A stretch of 64,000 bases of DNA, from NCBI GenBank assembly GCA_946413245.1, contig CAMKJS010000003.1, positions 1-64,000 on the forward strand, written 5' to 3'. Positions within the stretch are counted from its first letter, which is position 1. Each line of letters begins with the position of its first letter. A model generated the notes under the pieces. It had not been told where the DNA came from and did not search any database. It worked only from the letters and a program-made list of their open reading frames with translations. The DNA comes from an uncultured Clostridia bacterium. GTDB taxonomy: Bacteria > Bacillota > Clostridia > Christensenellales > Aristaeellaceae. Positions 43,787-63,559 of this stretch are shown here, piece by piece. The translations under genes were made by a program, and so were the position numbers.

Positions 43787-43952
43787 GGAGAATTTCGCGT
43801 CTGCGGACGCGACCAGGGCTTTCCTTCCCGCAACCTCAATAGTCGTAACTCCACACAGTGGAGATTACTCCTTTTCGGTTGACCTCAGCTCTGACAAGCA
43901 TCCCGCCGCTGGCGGTTGTCAGCGCTTCGCCCCCGGACCTTCGGTTACATAA
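43787..43952. repeat. structured intergenic repeat, family B copy 1
   Basis: It begins with hairpin TCGCGT-ctgcgg-ACGCGA (43795-43812) followed by CCAGGGCTTTCC. Hairpins CTCCAC/GTGGAG (43849-43863) and CTGACAA...TTGTCAG with inner CCGCC/GGCGG (43891-43922) come next, and it ends in CCCGGACCTTCGG. Copy 2 at 56125-56300 shares the first hairpin (stem changed, loop kept), the CCAGGGCTTTCC string and the GGACCTTCGG end, with different inner arms. Confidence 0.65.
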
Positions 43953-57518: not shown

Positions 57519-59507
57519 ATGAATAAAAAGAAGATTCCGGCCCTGGCCGGAGTGCTGGCGCTTTGCCTGCTGCTGACGGGCTGCTATATCGCCCCGGACG
57601 ACGTGAGCACCGGCGGAAACCAGAGCACGGTGAACAACCGGCCCTTTGCGACCCTGGCGCCCACTGCAACAGTGTATATGGAGCCGGATACGGTGGTGGT
57701 TCCTTCCCAGGACGTGTTCGGGGGAGCCGGCGGCGCCGTACAGGCGGTGAACACGGCGACGCCCACCCCGGACCCGGCCTCGCAGGATGCCGGCGGGAAC
57801 GATTACTGGACTACGGTGCAGCCCGGGGGAATTGCCGTGATCACGGAACAGCCCACGGCCCAGCAGCTGCCGACAGCGGTGCCTCTGACGGGAACCGCTG
57901 TGCCGGCACCGGGGACCATCGGGGTGATTACCGCGGGACCCACGGCCACCCGGGCGCCGGTGACCCCGACGCCCACGCCGAAGAGCCTGCAGCTCGGCTT
58001 CACCGGCAGCGACGAGGTGCGGAGCCTGCAGAAACGGCTGAAGGAACTGGGATACTACAAGGGAAACGCGGACGGAGACTTCGGCCCCGCCACGGACAAG
58101 GCCGTGAAGGAGTTCCAGAAGGCCAACGGACTGACGGCGGACGGCAAGGCCGGCGCGAAGACCCTGGAGAAGCTGTATTCGAAGGAAGCGGTCAGCTATG
58201 CCCAGGCGCACGCGACAGCGACCCCGAAGCCCACTGCCCGGGTAACGGCGCGGCCTACCGCGCGGGTGACGGCAACGCCGCGGGCTACAGCGACGCCGGA
58301 TCTGAGCAAGGATTATTATCTGCAGCTCGGTTCCAAGGGCAACCGGGTCACCCAGCTGCAGAAGCGGCTGATCTCCCTGGGATGGCTCAGCGGCAAAGCG
58401 TCAGGAACCTATGACGAGGACACGGAAGCCGCGGTGCGGGCCTTCCAGCGGAAGACACCGGGACTCTGGGAAGACGGCGTGGCCGGCCCCGGAACCCTGA
58501 AGGCTGTTTATTCCGAAGATGCCGCCCGGAGCAGCGCGCCGGTTGCCGGCAGCGGAGAAACCCTGGAAATGGGCTCCGAGGGAGACGAGGTCAAGGCCCT
58601 GCAGAAGCGGCTGAAGGAGCTGGGGTACCTGAAGGGCAGCGCGGACGGCAAGTTCGGCGTGGCCACCCAGGCGGCGGTGATCGCCTTCCAGCAGAACAAC
58701 AAGCTGACGGCGGACGGCAAAGCCGGCTCCGCGACCCTGCGGAAGCTGTATTCCAGCGACGCGATCCGCTCCGGCGGAAACGCCGTGAACATCGACAGCT
58801 CCGGCTCGGGAGGCCGGGACACCTCCGGCATTTCCTCCACCGGGTACGTCACCCTGGAGGAAGGCTCCACCGGGGAGCAGGTGAAGAACCTGCAGAAGCG
58901 GCTGAAGGAGCTGGGTTACTACAAGGGAAACGTGGACGGCAGCTTCGGCGAGGGAACCACCGCCGCGGTGATGGCTTTCCAGCTGCGGAACAACCTGACC
59001 GTGGACGGCAAGGCCGGCCCGGCGACCCAGCGGGTGCTGTACGGCAGCAAGGCTGCCATTACTTACTCCGCCCTGCGGATGGGGGACACGGGGCAGGCTG
59101 TGAAGAACCTGCAGTATACCCTGTACGAGCTCGGGTACTACGACGGCTCCATCGACGGGGTGTATGGCCAGACGACGTCGGACGCCGTGCGGGCCTTCCA
59201 GATTCAGAACAAGCTGAGCCCGGTGGACGGCGTGGCGGGAAGCAACACTCTGGCCAGAATGTATTCCAGCGACGCGGTGCCGGCGACGGCGGCCAACGTG
59301 GACTACGATACCGTGCGGCCCGGCGACCGGGGCGAAGTGGTGGTGGAGATTCAGGACTGCCTGATGGATATGGGATACCTGGACGACATCACCGGGATTT
59401 ATGACGACGCGACGACGGAAGCTGTGAAGGCGTTCCAGCGGGATCACGGGCTGACTCCGGACGGCGTATGCGGGGCGAAGACTCTGGTGATCCTGTTTGG
59501 GTATTAA
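57519..59507 (+). CDS. Lipoprotein with six peptidoglycan-binding repeats
   Basis: A 662-aa protein. The lipoprotein signal ends LLLTGC (Cys at about residue 22). A Thr/Pro-rich stretch (about 40-160) precedes six PG_binding_1 domains. Their unit is LQKRLKELGYYKG...DGxFGxxTxxAVxxFQxxNxLTxDGxAGxxTLxxLYS, starting at about residues 165, 265, 350, 450, 520 and 600. A second Thr/Pro-rich linker lies between units 1 and 2. No catalytic domain is attached. It should sit on the membrane surface and bind peptidoglycan. It begins 22 nt after the barnase-like gene, so they are probably cotranscribed. Confidence 0.9.
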   Translation: MNKKKIPALAGVLALCLLLTGCYIAPDDVSTGGNQSTVNNRPFATLAPTATVYMEPDTVVVPSQDVFGGAGGAVQAVNTATPTPDPASQDAGGNDYWTTVQPGGIAVITEQPTAQQLPTAVPLTGTAVPAPGTIGVITAGPTATRAPVTPTPTPKSLQLGFTGSDEVRSLQKRLKELGYYKGNADGDFGPATDKAVKEFQKANGLTADGKAGAKTLEKLYSKEAVSYAQAHATATPKPTARVTARPTARVTATPRATATPDLSKDYYLQLGSKGNRVTQLQKRLISLGWLSGKASGTYDEDTEAAVRAFQRKTPGLWEDGVAGPGTLKAVYSEDAARSSAPVAGSGETLEMGSEGDEVKALQKRLKELGYLKGSADGKFGVATQAAVIAFQQNNKLTADGKAGSATLRKLYSSDAIRSGGNAVNIDSSGSGGRDTSGISSTGYVTLEEGSTGEQVKNLQKRLKELGYYKGNVDGSFGEGTTAAVMAFQLRNNLTVDGKAGPATQRVLYGSKAAITYSALRMGDTGQAVKNLQYTLYELGYYDGSIDGVYGQTTSDAVRAFQIQNKLSPVDGVAGSNTLARMYSSDAVPATAANVDYDTVRPGDRGEVVVEIQDCLMDMGYLDDITGIYDDATTEAVKAFQRDHGLTPDGVCGAKTLVILFGY

Positions 59508-59519
59508 TTCAGAGTTGAG

Positions 59520-59640
59520 AGCGAGCGAGAGAAGCGTCAGCACAGTGTGCTGTCCTGCGAAGCAGGAAGCGACTCGAGCTCGTTAGCGCGAAACGAGTAC
59601 AGACGACGCTCCAAGTCGGCTGTACGACGATTGAGCGAAC
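59520..59640. repeat. structured intergenic repeat, family A copy 1
   Basis: 121 nt aligning without gaps to 63420-63540 (offset 3900). It holds hairpins CAGCAC/GTGCTG (59540 region) and TCCTGC-gaa-GCAGGA. It also holds an 11-position stem GTACAGaCGAC (59597-59607) with GTCGgCTGTAC (59615-59625) closed by loop GCTCCAA. In the second copy both arms differ but still pair, and the loop is identical. Confidence 0.82.
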
Positions 59641-59703
59641 GAGAGTTAAGAGTGAAGAGTTGAGAGCGAATGTGGAGATTTGAGTGAAAGGAAGGAATAG
59701 TTA

Positions 59704-60537
59704 ATGTCAGAATGCACACATGACTGCAGTACATGCGGAGCCGATTGCGCGAGCAGGGGCAACCCGCAGGAGAGTCTGCTGGAGCCGCAGAACGCGAACA
59801 GCAATATCAAAAAAGTGATCGCCGTGGTGAGCGGCAAGGGCGGCGTTGGCAAGAGCCTGGTCACCTCCCTGCTGGCGGTGCTGGCCCGGAGACGGGGCGA
59901 GAAGACGGCGATCCTGGATGCGGACATCACCGGGCCCTCCATCCCGAAAATGTTCGGCGTGCGGGATCCCGCCATGGGAAGCGAAGAGGGTATTTTGCCC
60001 TGTGAGACCCGGACGGGAATCAAAACCATGAGCATCAACCTGCTGCTGGAGCATGCCACGGATCCGGTGATCTGGCGCGGCGCGCTGATCGCCGGCACCG
60101 TGAAGCAGTTCTGGACCGACGTGGTCTGGGGTGACGTGGACACCATGTTCATCGATATGCCTCCGGGAACCGGCGACGTACCGCTGACTGTGTTCCAGAG
60201 CCTGCCGGTGGACGGCATCATCATCGTGACCAGTCCGCAGGAGCTGGTGGGCATGATCGTGGACAAGGCCGTGAATATGGCGAAGATGATGAACATACCG
60301 GTGCTGGGAATCGTGGAAAACATGAGCTATATTCCCTGCCCGGACTGCGGAAAAAAGATCTATCCCTTCGGAGAGAGCCATACGGCGCAGGTCGCGCTGG
60401 AACACGGGGTTCCGCTGCTGGCGCAGATGCCTATCGATCCGGCTCTGGCCCGGTCCTGCGACACCGGCGTGATCGAGCTGTTCAACGAAGCGTGGCTGGA
60501 TCCGGCTATGGACGCTATTGAGAGAGTGAAGAGTTGA
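59704..60537 (+). CDS. Mrp/NBP35-family Fe-S cluster carrier ATPase
   Basis: A 277-aa P-loop protein. The N-terminus has a Cys cluster (ECTHDCSTCGADCAS). The deviant Walker A is VVSGKGGVGKSLVTSLLAVL, then LDADITGPSIPKMFG and the switch FIDMPPGTGDVPLTVFQS. The C-terminal CxxC (YIPCPDCGKKIYPFG) binds the bridging cluster between two subunits. This family assembles or delivers Fe-S clusters. The normal length is reached. GGAAGGAA precedes the ATG. Confidence 0.93.
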   Translation: MSECTHDCSTCGADCASRGNPQESLLEPQNANSNIKKVIAVVSGKGGVGKSLVTSLLAVLARRRGEKTAILDADITGPSIPKMFGVRDPAMGSEEGILPCETRTGIKTMSINLLLEHATDPVIWRGALIAGTVKQFWTDVVWGDVDTMFIDMPPGTGDVPLTVFQSLPVDGIIIVTSPQELVGMIVDKAVNMAKMMNIPVLGIVENMSYIPCPDCGKKIYPFGESHTAQVALEHGVPLLAQMPIDPALARSCDTGVIELFNEAWLDPAMDAIERVKS

Positions 60538-60593
60538 GAGCGAAGAGTTGAGAGTGAAGAGTTGAGAGTGAAGAGTTGAGAGTGAGGAGTAGA
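60535..60593 (+). repeat. tandem repeat of about 15 nt (GAGAGTGAAGAGTT)
   Basis: Four near-identical units of GAGAGYGAAGAGTT follow each other from the mrp stop codon, then an inverted stretch CTCCACTCTC appears at 60599-60628, so the whole can fold back. Single or double units of the same sequence also stand beside the family A repeats at about 59650 and 63390. Confidence 0.75.
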
Positions 60594-60649
60594 AAAACTC
60601 CACTCTCCACTCTACAAACTCCACTCTCAGGTTAAGGGGGTGAGGAGAT

Positions 60650-61843
60650 ATCGCCAGAGGAACACAAAGCATCAACGATCAGCTGTACAGGTTCAGAACA
60701 AGGAACGCAGCGGACAGCCGGACACCTTCGCCGGAACAGGTCCGGCGGCGCCAGATCCGGAACTGGATCATTCTGGTGGGCATTGTGCTGGCGATTCTGC
60801 TGGGAGTACACTTCCTGCGCCGGTACGGACAGGCCAAGGAAATCGGCGCCACGCGGCTGCCGTGCTACAGCAACCAGAGCGTGACTCCCTTCCGGGACGG
60901 GCTGGTCTACTATGACGGCGCGACCATCCACCACCTGAGCAGCTCCGGCACGATCCGCTGGAGTTTTCCGACTGGCGCCGGCGTCGTATTCACCGCGGGG
61001 CCGACTCACCTGGCTGTGTGGGGCGGGAATCAGCTGTATCTGGTGGACAAGGACGGGAACGCCACCTACAATGACAACCTGGAAGGCCAGGTGCAGTTTG
61101 CCCGGCTGGGCGAGCGGTACGCGGCCGTCGTGGTCGGCGAGGATACGGCACCGAAGCTGATCGTCAAGGACCTGAACGGGACCCAGGTGGACATCGAGCC
61201 GGAAGCCTTCCAGGGGCTGATGATTCTGGATACGGGCTTTTACGGGGACCAGGGGCAGTACCTGTGGACCCTGAGCATGGACGTGTTCGGGACGGCGGCC
61301 AATACGATCCTGAATACCTTCCAGGTGGGCAAGATGAACACCGGCGAGGTTTCCCTGGGGGAAAACCTGACTTACAAGGTGATTTACGAGAACGGCCGGC
61401 TGCGGGTGTTTACGACCCAGCAGGTGTATACCTACGACTACAAGGCCGTGCAGGACACCAACGCCACGATGCTGGTGTACGGCTGGAAGCTGATCGACGC
61501 CGAAATCCCGGAGCGGGGGAACGCGCGGATGCTGCTGGCTCCGACGAGCCAGACCAGCAGCGCTCAGATTATCCAGGAGCTGCGGGTGCTGGAAGGGAAC
61601 TCGGACAAGCGGTACACGCTGCCGACCAACTGCGTCGGGGCGACGATCTACAAGGGGAACATTTACGCCGTATCCGCGGATTATGTGTACCGGGCGGATA
61701 TGAACAGCCAGCGGTTTTTCGGGTATAAGATTCCGGTGCCGGAGGGAACGCTGATTAACGGGTACGCCGGCGTCACCCAGGACGGGAAGATGCTGCTGAG
61801 CTCCGGCGAAACCATGTATTCGATGAGTTTACCGGTAAACTGA
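60650..61843 (+). CDS. Membrane-anchored extracytoplasmic protein (DUF5711-like)
   Basis: About 397 aa if started at 60650. A basic cytoplasmic N-terminus (ARGTQSINDQLYRFRTRNAA) is followed by one span (NWIILVGIVLAILLGVHFL) and a large outside part of beta-strand repeats (GLVYYDGATIHHLSSSGTIR, LYLVDKDGNATYN), like a propeller. DUF5711 is the nearest family I can name, tentatively. The only ATG/GTG in the area, GTG 60776, lies inside the span with no ribosome site. AAGGGGGTGA (60634-60643) stands 6 nt before an ATC at 60650, which would begin the protein naturally, so a rare ATC start or a mutated ATG is likely. Function unknown. Confidence 0.65.
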   Translation: MARGTQSINDQLYRFRTRNAADSRTPSPEQVRRRQIRNWIILVGIVLAILLGVHFLRRYGQAKEIGATRLPCYSNQSVTPFRDGLVYYDGATIHHLSSSGTIRWSFPTGAGVVFTAGPTHLAVWGGNQLYLVDKDGNATYNDNLEGQVQFARLGERYAAVVVGEDTAPKLIVKDLNGTQVDIEPEAFQGLMILDTGFYGDQGQYLWTLSMDVFGTAANTILNTFQVGKMNTGEVSLGENLTYKVIYENGRLRVFTTQQVYTYDYKAVQDTNATMLVYGWKLIDAEIPERGNARMLLAPTSQTSSAQIIQELRVLEGNSDKRYTLPTNCVGATIYKGNIYAVSADYVYRADMNSQRFFGYKIPVPEGTLINGYAGVTQDGKMLLSSGETMYSMSLPVN

Positions 61844-61936
61844 GTCGGAACACCCGTCCGGGCTGCCAGTAACTTGCAGGGAAAAAGAAAAATACGTAAG
61901 ACGGAAAAACGGAAACCTATTCAGGAGGAGAAGAGG

Positions 61937-63385
61937 ATGGCCAAGGAGAAAAAGCAGGAGTTTGTAACCCACATTACCCCCAGGAGTGAAGACTTTTCCC
62001 AGTGGTATACGGATGTGATCAAGCAGACCGAGCTGTGCGACTACGCGCCGGTGCGGGGCTGCATGATCATCCGGCCGTACGGCTATGCTATCTGGGAACG
62101 GATTCAGGCGGAGATGGACAAGCGCTTCAAGGAAACCGGCGCGGAGAACGTGTATTTCCCGATGCTGATTCCGGAAAGCCTGCTGCTGAAGGAGGCGGAG
62201 CACGTGGAAGGCTTCGCGCCGGAAGTGGCCTGGGTCACCCAGGGGGGACAGGAGAAGCTGCAGGAGCGCCTTGCGGTGCGGCCCACCAGCGAGACCATTT
62301 TCTGCGCGATGTACTCCAAGTGGGTGCAGACCTGGCGGGATCTGCCGATGATGTATAACCAGTGGTGCTCCGTGATGCGCTGGGAGAAGGCCACCCGGCC
62401 TTTCCTGCGGACCAGCGAGTTCCTCTGGCAGGAAGGCCATACCATCCACGCCACCGCGGAGGAGGCGGAGGAGGAGACCCTGAAGATGCTGGGGGTTTAC
62501 CGGGAAGTGGCGGAGGACGTGCTTGCCCTGCCGGTGTATGTGGGCCGGAAGAGCGAAAAGGAAAAGTTTGCCGGCGCCCGGGCCACCTATTCCATGGAAG
62601 CCATGATGCAGGACGGCAAGGCGCTGCAGGCGGGCACCAGCCACAACTTCGGCACCAATTTCTCCGAAGCTTTCGACATCCAGTACCAGAGCAAGGAAGG
62701 CAAGCTGGAATACGTGCATGAGACCAGCTGGGGCGTCAGTACCCGGCTGATCGGCGCCATCATCATGACCCACGGCGACGAGCGCGGCCTGCGGCTGCCG
62801 CCCCGGATCGCGCCGATCCAGGCGGTGATCCTGCCTATCGCGGCCCACAAGGGCGGTGTGCTGGAAGCCTGCGGGAAGCTGTATGACGAGCTGAAGGCGG
62901 CCGGCTTCCGGGTGAAGCTGGACGACCGGGATACCGTAAGTCCCGGATTCAAATTCAACGACTGGGAGCTGAAGGGCGTGCCGGTGCGGCTGGAGGTCGG
63001 TCCCCGGGATCTGGAGAACGGCGTGGTGACCGTGTTCCGCCGGGATACGCTGGAGAAGTTCACCCTGCCGCTGAACGAGATTGCCGAAAAGCTGAGCGAG
63101 CTGCTGGACGACATCCAGAAGACCCTGTACTGTCAGGCGAAAGCGTTCCGGGACGAGCGTACTGTGACCGTGCACAATATGGAAGAGCTGGAGAAGGCCG
63201 TGGACGCCGGCTTTGCCAAGGCCATGTGGTGCGGCGAGCGGGCCTGCGAGGACGAAATCAAGGACAAGTTCAACGCCAGCAGCCGGAATATGCCCTTCGA
63301 CCAGGAAGGCGAGACCTTCGGCGACACCTGTGTGTGCTGCGGGAAGAAGGCAAAGCACGTGATGTTCTTTGCGAAAGCGTATTAA
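61937..63385 (+). CDS. proS: Prolyl-tRNA synthetase, type 3 (archaeal/eukaryotic type)
   Basis: A 482-aa class II synthetase charging tRNA-Pro. Motif 1 region [17 protein letters not shown], motif 2 as [21 protein letters not shown], and motif 3 as ISRVLT-side sequence [21 protein letters not shown] are in order. The anticodon-binding domain begins [17 protein letters not shown]. The C-terminal zinc-like region has [11 protein letters not shown] and [20 protein letters not shown], as in the type without an editing insertion. AGGAGGAG lies 8 nt before ATG 61937. No T-box leader fits in the short upstream gap. Confidence 0.96.
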
Positions 63386-63419
63386 ACCAGAGTGAAGAGT
63401 TGAGATTGAAGAGTGGAGA

Positions 63420-63540
63420 GCGAGCGAGAGAAGCGTCAGCACGGTGTGCTGTCCTGCGAAGCAGGAAGCGACCTGAGCTCGTTAGCGCGAAAGGGAGTGG
63501 AGATCCCGCTCCAAGGGGTTTCCACGACCATTGAGCGAAC
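63420..63540. repeat. structured intergenic repeat, family A copy 2
   Basis: Aligns without gaps to 59520-59640. The variable stem here is GTGGAGATCCC (63497-63507) with GGGGTTTCCAC (63515-63525), 11 pairs of which two are G-T, around the same GCTCCAA loop. The flanking CAGCAC/GTGCTG and TCCTGC/GCAGGA hairpins are kept, and both copies end in ATTGAGCGAAC. Confidence 0.82.
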
Positions 63541-63559
63541 GTGGGAGGAGTAAGAAAAC

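Follow-up and report, generated by a model that had tools for sequence, protein, structure and literature searches.

A small mobile hairpin repeat with a covarying fold in a lineage of Clostridia

Rickettsia palindromic elements (RPEs) are described in passages of PMC10969869 as small (~150 bp), palindromic, dispersed and able to lie in frame within open reading frames (ORFs), and the same passages describe the ERIC and BOX repeats as intergenic and present in many copies. Passages of PMC3733652 give a CGTC tag for the RPEs of Rickettsia conorii and a length of 20-40 bp for repetitive extragenic palindromes (REPs), which, according to part of PMC8266576, are recognised as folded single strands by enzymes of the REP-associated tyrosine transposase (RAYT) type. 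Judged from these passages, RPEs and the CGTC- or GTAG-tagged repeats are the closest known kinds to the element described here, a hairpin repeat of ~120 nt found in a 64,000-nt stretch of an uncultured Clostridia bacterium (contig CAMKJS010000003.1, positions 1 to 64,000; this whole stretch is called the window). An earlier reading of the window by a model that saw only the letters and their ORFs (the sequence-only reading) had noted two copies and proposed a structured RNA or a mobile hairpin element.

The element is like RPEs in being a small dispersed palindrome whose positions differ between species, and two phage ORFs traverse it. It is unlike them in its hosts, in its two-arm fold with G.A motifs and in its mostly intergenic or RNA-gene sites, and the CGTC tag of RPEs is not a constant end in it; the comparison with RPEs is by description, not by sequence. 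With the REP, REPIN and BIME repeats and their RAYTs it shares the character of multi-copy extragenic palindromes, REPs acting as folded single strands, but it differs from them in length (~120 nt against 20-40 bp), in its branched fold and in having no GTAG or CGTC foot. Neither tag is constant at either end of our alignment of the element, and a CGTC before its first small hairpin is absent from some rows. ERIC is 127 bp long and BOX is modular; ERIC is similar to the element in size, in its intergenic position and in its many copies, compared again by description and not by sequence.

A fold preserved through paired changes

We found 42 full-length copies of the element and aligned 39 of them (alignment A1, with a structure of 41 pairs), and the covariance model R1 was made from these 39 aligned copies. 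The members in the window and their parts are as follows.

59517-59643, +: element copy 1, subfamily A (R1, 146.8 bits, E 2.2e-31)
63416-63543, +: element copy 2, subfamily A (R1, 137.0 bits, E 3.4e-29)
43827-43934, -: third member, subfamily C, with another arm 1 and the same arm 2 (R1 with filters off, 21.8 bits, E 0.0029)
59520-59584, +: copy 1, arm 1, with helix P0 formed by 59520-59526 and 59578-59584
59529-59531/59573-59575 and 59534-59535/59569-59570, +: copy 1, short helices of arm 1 with G.A-rich internal loops between (covariation structure and predicted fold)
59538-59552, +: copy 1, hairpin A, CAGCAC-AGT-GTGCTG (sequence and covariation)
59553-59567, +: copy 1, hairpin B, TCCTGC-GAA-GCAGGA (sequence and covariation)
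59587-59637, +: copy 1, arm 2, with helix P1 (59587-59589 and 59635-59637), GA motifs, a short variable helix and stem C (covariation structure)
59597-59625, +: copy 1, stem C (59597-59607/59615-59625) with loop GCTCCAA at 59608-59614, the covarying stem of the sequence-only reading
63437-63466, +: copy 2, hairpins A (63437-63451) and B (63452-63466) (sequence)
63497-63525, +: copy 2, stem C (63497-63507/63515-63525) with loop GCTCCAA at 63508-63514 (sequence and covariation)

Arm 1 runs in the order P0, GA motif, two to three variable pairs, AA/GA loop, two pairs, hairpin A and hairpin B, and arm 2 in the order P1, GA, AA with two variable pairs, GA and stem C. The loop of hairpin A is mostly AGT and that of stem C mostly GCYCCAA. 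P0, P1 and the short helices of 2-3 bp between G.A-rich internal loops extend the structure beyond the sequence-only reading, whose hairpins A and B are present as described in both copies, as is the unchanged 7-nt loop GCTCCAA. R1 also finds both copies where that reading had placed them. The two are 86.5% identical (blastn of copy 2 against copy 1, E 1.1e-36; aligned segments of 125 and 126 nt), and within the window the 16-mers GTCCTGCGAAGCAGGA and GCTCGTTAGCGCGAAA match only copies 1 and 2 even when up to three mismatches are allowed. The alignment, said to be gapless, is interrupted by a single 1-nt gap, which falls in the short variable helix beneath stem C (CGA versus GGGA). Both arms of the 11-position stem have changed as claimed, with a correction of detail: read from the sequence, copy 1 has ten Watson-Crick pairs and one A.G mismatch, and copy 2 has nine Watson-Crick pairs and two G.T wobbles.

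Three subfamilies (A, B and C) have arm 2 in common, and both copies noted by the sequence-only reading belong to A. Subfamily C has a different arm 1 and is represented by alignment A3 (17 copies), in which the window member on the minus strand is row 1. Subfamily B has a P1 of the CAACC/GGTTG type and a P0 that, by eye, is not Watson-Crick. A pairing between its 5' end and the stem C loop, judged by eye and uncounted, was dropped.

The paired changes seen in subfamily A recur in subfamily C. In A1, 92.5% of cells are paired against a shuffled mean of 75.8%, 31 of the 41 pairs show double changes (shuffled mean 21.3) and 266 cells are double-changed (shuffled mean 79.0); none of these values was reached in 500 shuffles, and controls in which the structure was slid along the alignment gave 30-38% paired. 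Within A3, 95.5% of cells are paired, double changes occur in 25 of 34 pairs, and there are 93 double-changed cells against 23.4 in shuffles. We thus show that the fold has been preserved through many paired changes, and the earlier claim that a plain duplication does not account for the copies is borne out by covariation in 39 subfamily A and 17 subfamily C copies. Predicted folding energies lie well below those of shuffled sequences for three of four copies (z -3.9, -4.3 and -4.1) and less far below for a subfamily B copy (z -1.8), and one strand is shown to be able to fold into two adjacent arms.

Spread of the family and its landing sites

The covariance-model search that the sequence-only reading had suggested returned many further copies, and these vary with their pairing kept. 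R1 has 35 matches in the window's own genome and 46, 40, 37, 36 and 35 in the related genomes G002, G041, G001, G008 and G023; at least one match occurs in 40 of the 45 genomes of the genus, including all 13 with at least 90% completeness and at most 5% contamination. In a sample of the order, 9 of 297 genomes match, all from the window's family, so that as far as this sample goes the element is limited to one bacterial family. With copy 1 as blastn query, at least 21 places were found in the own genome, where 21 of 31 candidates were scored; 15 of 41 genomes gave matches, and all of these belong to the same genus. A pattern scan of public genomes gave at least 116 stretches; 78 of the 80 titles listed are of Clostridia type, mostly rumen or gut metagenome-assembled genomes, some of them labelled in their records as Lachnospiraceae, Christensenellaceae or Candidatus Limiplasma, and the stretches from Kangiella and Symploca have no R1 match. 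The same kind of scan gave six stretches in viral contigs, five of which match R1 at E <=0.01, with weak scores in two cases (24.7 and 23.5 bits); the sixth (L396) has no R1 match. Spread by plasmids or phages as seen by blastn was rejected, copy 1 being unmatched in both the plasmid and the phage collection. We found no publication describing the element by title or by the start of its abstract, a search that did not extend to supplementary lists of candidate RNAs (e.g. PMC8040213).

Head-to-tail arrays of the element occur. A GC-rich composite array in L053 (2300-3700, genome G060) holds four head-to-tail copies at 122-bp spacing, with two more past a gap amid other palindromic sequence. In L103 (3200-5100, genome G262, of another genus of the family) copies lie, by eye, within a repeat of several hundred bases that has inverted pieces of its own.

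That the element moves is shown by comparison of loci. Thirty mrp loci were scanned (from 30 of the 38 genomes with a match), and the window's own is the only one that carries the element; its mrp spacer measures 196 nt, and those of the two relatives that match best, G024 and G009, measure 22 and 12 nt. The idea of a structured RNA serving mrp was thus not supported, and a leader or riboswitch of mrp was rejected because 29 of the 30 mrp loci lack the element, in a survey that covered mrp loci and not plsX. A second comparison comes from a REP-like repeat, which in its empty form runs TGTCATCTCGACCAAG..GCGTGGAGAGATCT (L177, L213, L218) and in its occupied form in L201 reads GCGTGG, then GGAGCGAG..GGATGCGG, then AGAGATCTC, with an insert of ~119 nt between GCGTGG and AGAGATCTCC; the empty and occupied forms are different copies of the repeat, not one site. 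Occupied sites were read by script, a stricter typed pattern having matched none of 444 loci. At this clean comparison there is no target duplication, or at most a 2-bp GG, and in A1 the left and right ends of the element are not inverted copies of each other; in both respects, no terminal inverted repeats and no or only a GG duplication, the element is unlike a classical miniature inverted-repeat element of a DDE transposon.

Phage genes provide further sites. A 162-aa phage ORF has the element in its last third, where 10 related loci lack it, at a weak R1 score (23.5 bits). In two viral contigs a 272-aa ORF, whose peptidoglycan (PG)-binding domain covers residues 210-268, runs antisense through a subfamily C copy immediately before that domain. 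Relatives of the phage ORF in L395 gave no informative empty site (three loci, two with the same sequence). Overall, 35 of 125 copies (of 126) overlap a predicted ORF of at least 120 aa, which may or may not be a real gene. We show that different genomes carry the element at new places. The "mobile hairpin element" alternative of the sequence-only reading is upheld by the spread in the genus, the single copy among 30 mrp loci, the empty and occupied REP-like repeat and the phage ORF.

In two closed genomes copies show a strong enrichment near tRNA genes. Of the 27 copies in G023 and the 32 in G041, 8 and 9 are found no more than 600 bp from an intact tRNA gene, against 0.28 and 0.34 copies expected at random; they adjoin 5 and 6 tRNA genes (the weakest tRNA match of each genome was left out, so that 51 of 52 and 48 of 49 were used). 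By eye, copies sit inside tRNA-derived sequence in the D-loop after GG (L051, L024), in the variable loop after GG (L009, L021, L055) and in the T-arm of tRNA-Ser (L012, L014, L058). One interrupted tRNA-Val(CAC), with the element in its variable loop, is called by Infernal as a 192-nt tRNA (35.1 bits, gathering score 29), and an intact tRNA-Val(CAC) lies 3.2 kb away. At L058 (1200-1610) a promoter-like upstream region together with tRNA-Ser(CGA) is duplicated in tandem, the first copy interrupted by the element and the second intact, an arrangement similar to those in G001 and G005. In other loci the tRNA is followed by a terminator hairpin, by the 3' half of the tRNA in antisense, by the element and by a 3' end in sense. 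The junctions that were read have lost or exchanged the tRNA base or bases that follow GG, and among the hosts several are partial copies of a tRNA. Intron-like insertion does not describe these junctions, which lack exact exons on both sides.

The tRNA genes at or near copies are those of Ser CGA, Ala CGC, Val CAC, Arg CCT, Pro CGG, Thr CGT and Met CAT, all C34 anticodons, with Val GAC as an exception. Several of these tRNAs are isoacceptors of a kind that is often dispensable. In L055 (650-8000, G023) three partial or full tRNA-Val-like copies follow an intact tRNA-Val(CAC) within 7.5 kb, each with the element in its variable loop; they resemble attachment-site leftovers of integrated elements.

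Ribosomal RNA operons are used as well. In L122, L199, L186 and L214 the element lies downstream of an rRNA operon and antisense to it, and in L122 (300-1140, G002) three elements within ~620 bp alternate with degenerate 5S copies behind the operon; two of these narrowly pass the 5S cut-off (41.9 and 38.7 bits) and a third falls short of it, as does one in L214. A Gut-1 RNA (RF01706, 60.2 bits, gathering score 50) lies at L214 383-464, ~470 nt from an element copy of G002. Loops of tRNA genes and the 3' sides of rRNA operons are among the sites used, as are a REP-like repeat, ORFs of phages and spacers between genes. A start could be recognised and classified in 93 of the 126 rows of the larger alignment, the other 33 being excluded, and GG usually stands before it: in 50 of the 54 starts of subfamily B and in 21 of the 39 of subfamily A.

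In the window itself, the copies before mrp and plsX would be landing sites with no role for those genes, and the two repeats most probably do not act as a switch that controls their neighbours. The gene names of the sequence-only reading fit the profile matches.

57519-59507: ORF with peptidoglycan-binding repeats, 5' of copy 1 (Pfam PG_binding_1)
59704-60537: mrp, 3' of copy 1, a Mrp/NUBPL-type P-loop NTPase (Pfam ParA/NUBPL)
61874-63385: prolyl-tRNA synthetase ORF, 5' of copy 2 (TIGR00408, 620.9 bits)
63560 to the window end, which cuts it: plsX, 3' of copy 2 (114.3 bits for the cut protein, N-terminal part of PlsX)

GA-rich 7-nt repeats (AGAGTGG/AGAGTTG/AGAGTGA) lie at 59510-59520, 59641-59680 and 63390-63416 of the window and, by eye, adjoin 12 of 22 listed matches in the own genome; elsewhere TAGGAGG-type 7-nt repeats adjoin copies. 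The motif GGAAAGCCCTGGTCGCG..CGCGAAAT follows the minus-strand window copy at 43827-43934, and a motif of similar form comes after copies in L054 and L397.

Folded DNA or RNA as the selected form

The sequence-only reading took the paired changes as a sign of selection on structure, and the fold is indeed kept through such changes; to conclude RNA from covariation is doubtful, since the G-U wobbles seen in a real RNA of the genus are missing over most of the fold. As control we used the RNase P RNA of the genus (30 of 31 matches, 29 distinct sequences), since ARAGORN draws canonical pairs only and its tRNA pairs were unusable as an A.C control. RNase P RNA has G-U in 10.2% of paired cells and a G-U:A.C ratio of 16.7, and tRNA genes (57 distinct) have 6.7% G-U. 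The corresponding values are 3.7% and 1.8 for A1 without two G.U-rich P0 positions, 1.8% and 3.3 for A3, and 0.7% and 1.0 for hairpins A and B of A1; among distinct ungapped alleles of hairpins A and B, G-U and A.C stand at 7:11. Most of the fold is thus wobble-poor, stem C and P0 excepted, and on these counts selection at the DNA level appears to be favoured.

A second comparison concerned double and single changes. The ratio of double to single changes is 6.8 in the element and 1.6 in RNase P RNA, a difference that we discount because close copies show no consistent excess: among nearest neighbours at 85-97% identity it is 0.97 in A1, 0.58 in the larger alignment A2 (126 rows, 123 distinct used for pair counts) and 0.70 in RNase P RNA. 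One-step paired substitution was likewise set aside, the nearest-neighbour test giving no consistent support. These numbers bear on an explanation in which the element is a passive DNA product, with template switching at hairpins or stalled forks copying, inverting and homogenising palindromes and no dedicated enzyme involved. There is published precedent, part of PMC8794818 stating that template switching can produce paired changes, and subfamily C nearest neighbours (80% identity) show 64 double against 22 single changes. The snapback order of tRNA, terminator, antisense tRNA, element and sense tRNA would fit, as would partial unit repeats, whole stems replaced between orthologous copies, and a modest excess of complementarity between the two flanks of a copy over mismatched flanks (16 of 122 copies, from 126, beyond the 5% point, with ~6 expected). 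We nevertheless regard this explanation as improbable, since a clean insertion of ~119 nt in an unrelated repeat and the copies in phage ORFs need more than local copying, and the neighbours at 85-97% identity show no consistent double:single excess over RNase P RNA.

Taken together, the repeat family with its fold and its mobility is real, and DNA-level selection is favoured, short of proof. Our preferred interpretation, which we hold to be somewhat better than even, is that of a non-autonomous mobile hairpin element of ~120 nt, selected mainly as folded DNA and scattered among related gut bacteria. The main selected form would be a folded single DNA strand, which may serve as substrate for an enzyme acting in trans; a single-strand nuclease or strand transferase of the Y1/HUH type would fit. 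Exposure of single strands at replication forks, in cruciforms or at transcribed tRNA genes could then determine the choice of sites.

Several observations weigh against this interpretation. Over all 41 pairs of A1, G-U reaches 7.6%, not far from RNase P RNA, with a G-U:A.C ratio of 3.8. Stem C in A2 has 64 G-U, 909 Watson-Crick, 15 A.C and 202 other cells, a tRNA-like share of G-U, and one P0 position is G.U in all 39 A1 copies and in 105 of 123 distinct copies; both fit RNA better. RNase P RNA is also less diverged than the element (86% mean identity versus 72% and 70%). In subfamily A, 18 of the 39 starts do not obey the GG rule, and the GG before subfamily B starts may be the element's own. 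At a 31st mrp locus, that of G047, an independent copy lies ~240 nt upstream of mrp, which makes a second genome with the element there and speaks against pure chance; this copy sits in a larger repeat also found before another gene. Upstream neighbours are co-directional in 67 of 102 cases (crude ORF calls, 125 of 126 copies), which may reflect an RNA role or transcription-linked insertion. On the enzyme side, 3 of 16 genomes searched have elements and no Y1_Tnp match, only one of 30 Y1_Tnp loci has the element, as a partial match, and nine genomes with at least five copies, one of them at least 90% complete, have no RAYT-like match at E 1e-30.

Several of these points would also be expected of a functional structured RNA present in many copies, trans-acting or forming the 3' end or leader of mRNAs, with the RNA fold under selection. 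The strong covariation in subfamilies A and C, the tRNA-like share of G-U in stem C, the invariant G.U in P0, the G-U level over all A1 pairs and the co-directional upstream genes are all as such an RNA would have them, and copies have been inherited at orthologous tRNA-Ser and tRNA-Val sites with the fold kept. The element also resembles Rfam structured RNA families in its conserved branched fold and covariation, but it differs from them in being mobile, in matching no Rfam family and in its scarcity of wobbles outside stem C and P0. The window has no Rfam match at the gathering score, and in 10 loci searched at E <=1 no match covers the element; a known RNA family was rejected on this ground. 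No conserved gene partner was seen, with 29 of 30 mrp loci empty; insertions stand antisense in a phage ORF, in tRNA-derived sequence and antisense downstream of rRNA operons (four loci checked); and downstream neighbours are evenly oriented (55 of 107 co-directional). A functional RNA is, in our estimate, rather unlikely.

Candidate enzymes and the meaning of the family

If the preferred interpretation of a folded DNA strand moved in trans is followed, the RAYT-like Y1 transposases of these genomes are candidates, and the element would then be REP-like. Y1_Tnp matches occur in 13 of the 16 genomes searched, those read being mostly RAYT-like, and RAYT-like proteins, one to four per genome at E 1e-30, in 24 of the 45 genomes of the genus; one scores 63 bits against the NCBIfam model for REP-associated tyrosine transposase (cut-off 80). 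The ability of such enzymes to bind REPs as folded single strands (part of PMC8266576) would suit the fold described above. Copy number correlates with the number of RAYT-like proteins (Spearman 0.40; 0.48 in 25 genomes at least 85% complete), but completeness alone correlates equally well (0.42), and some genomes have copies but no such gene, others the gene but few copies. The neighbourhoods, 30 of 42 Y1_Tnp matches, RAYT-like and others, lack the element in 29 cases, unlike REPs with their RAYTs, and no GTAG or CGTC tag is constant at its ends. A Y1 or RAYT partner is thus not demonstrated by neighbourhood or co-occurrence, and movement by these particular enzymes seems to us quite improbable. 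The RAYT-like protein of G041, used as query, is 100% identical in G001 and G023, genomes held as different species (L415-L417).

Insertion by way of RNA, in which element RNA is joined to tRNA or 5S RNA and then reverse transcribed, would account for the breakpoints at D-loop, variable-loop and T-arm positions and for the sense tRNA pieces on both sides of the element in several loci. The reverse transcriptase domain RVT_1 (PF00078) was found in 5 of 16 genomes (14 of them genus members) and is absent from the seven most copy-rich of the 14 genus genomes (G000, G001, G002, G008, G023, G041 and G050), so that a reverse transcriptase partner was not found in copy-rich genomes, and insertions also occur at non-RNA sites such as the REP-like repeat. 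We consider this route highly improbable.

A more detailed form of mobile DNA may be put forward tentatively, though we would not expect it to hold in full: a lineage-specific, modular element, a folded single strand whose second arm is constant and whose first arms (A, B and C) can be exchanged. It would insert after GG in tRNA-gene loops and other hairpins, leave no target duplication, be moved by an as yet unrecognised enzyme and also be carried by phages.

Covariation is usually read as proof of a functional RNA, and here it is joined to mobility and to a wobble deficit that points to DNA-level selection; RNA-discovery pipelines would probably class the element as a novel non-coding RNA. 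How small palindromes move without a known transposase is a question common to RPEs, ERIC and the CGTC-tagged repeats. With its empty and occupied sites, its tRNA-gene targets and its phage copies, this family is a good system in which to study how such palindromes move.

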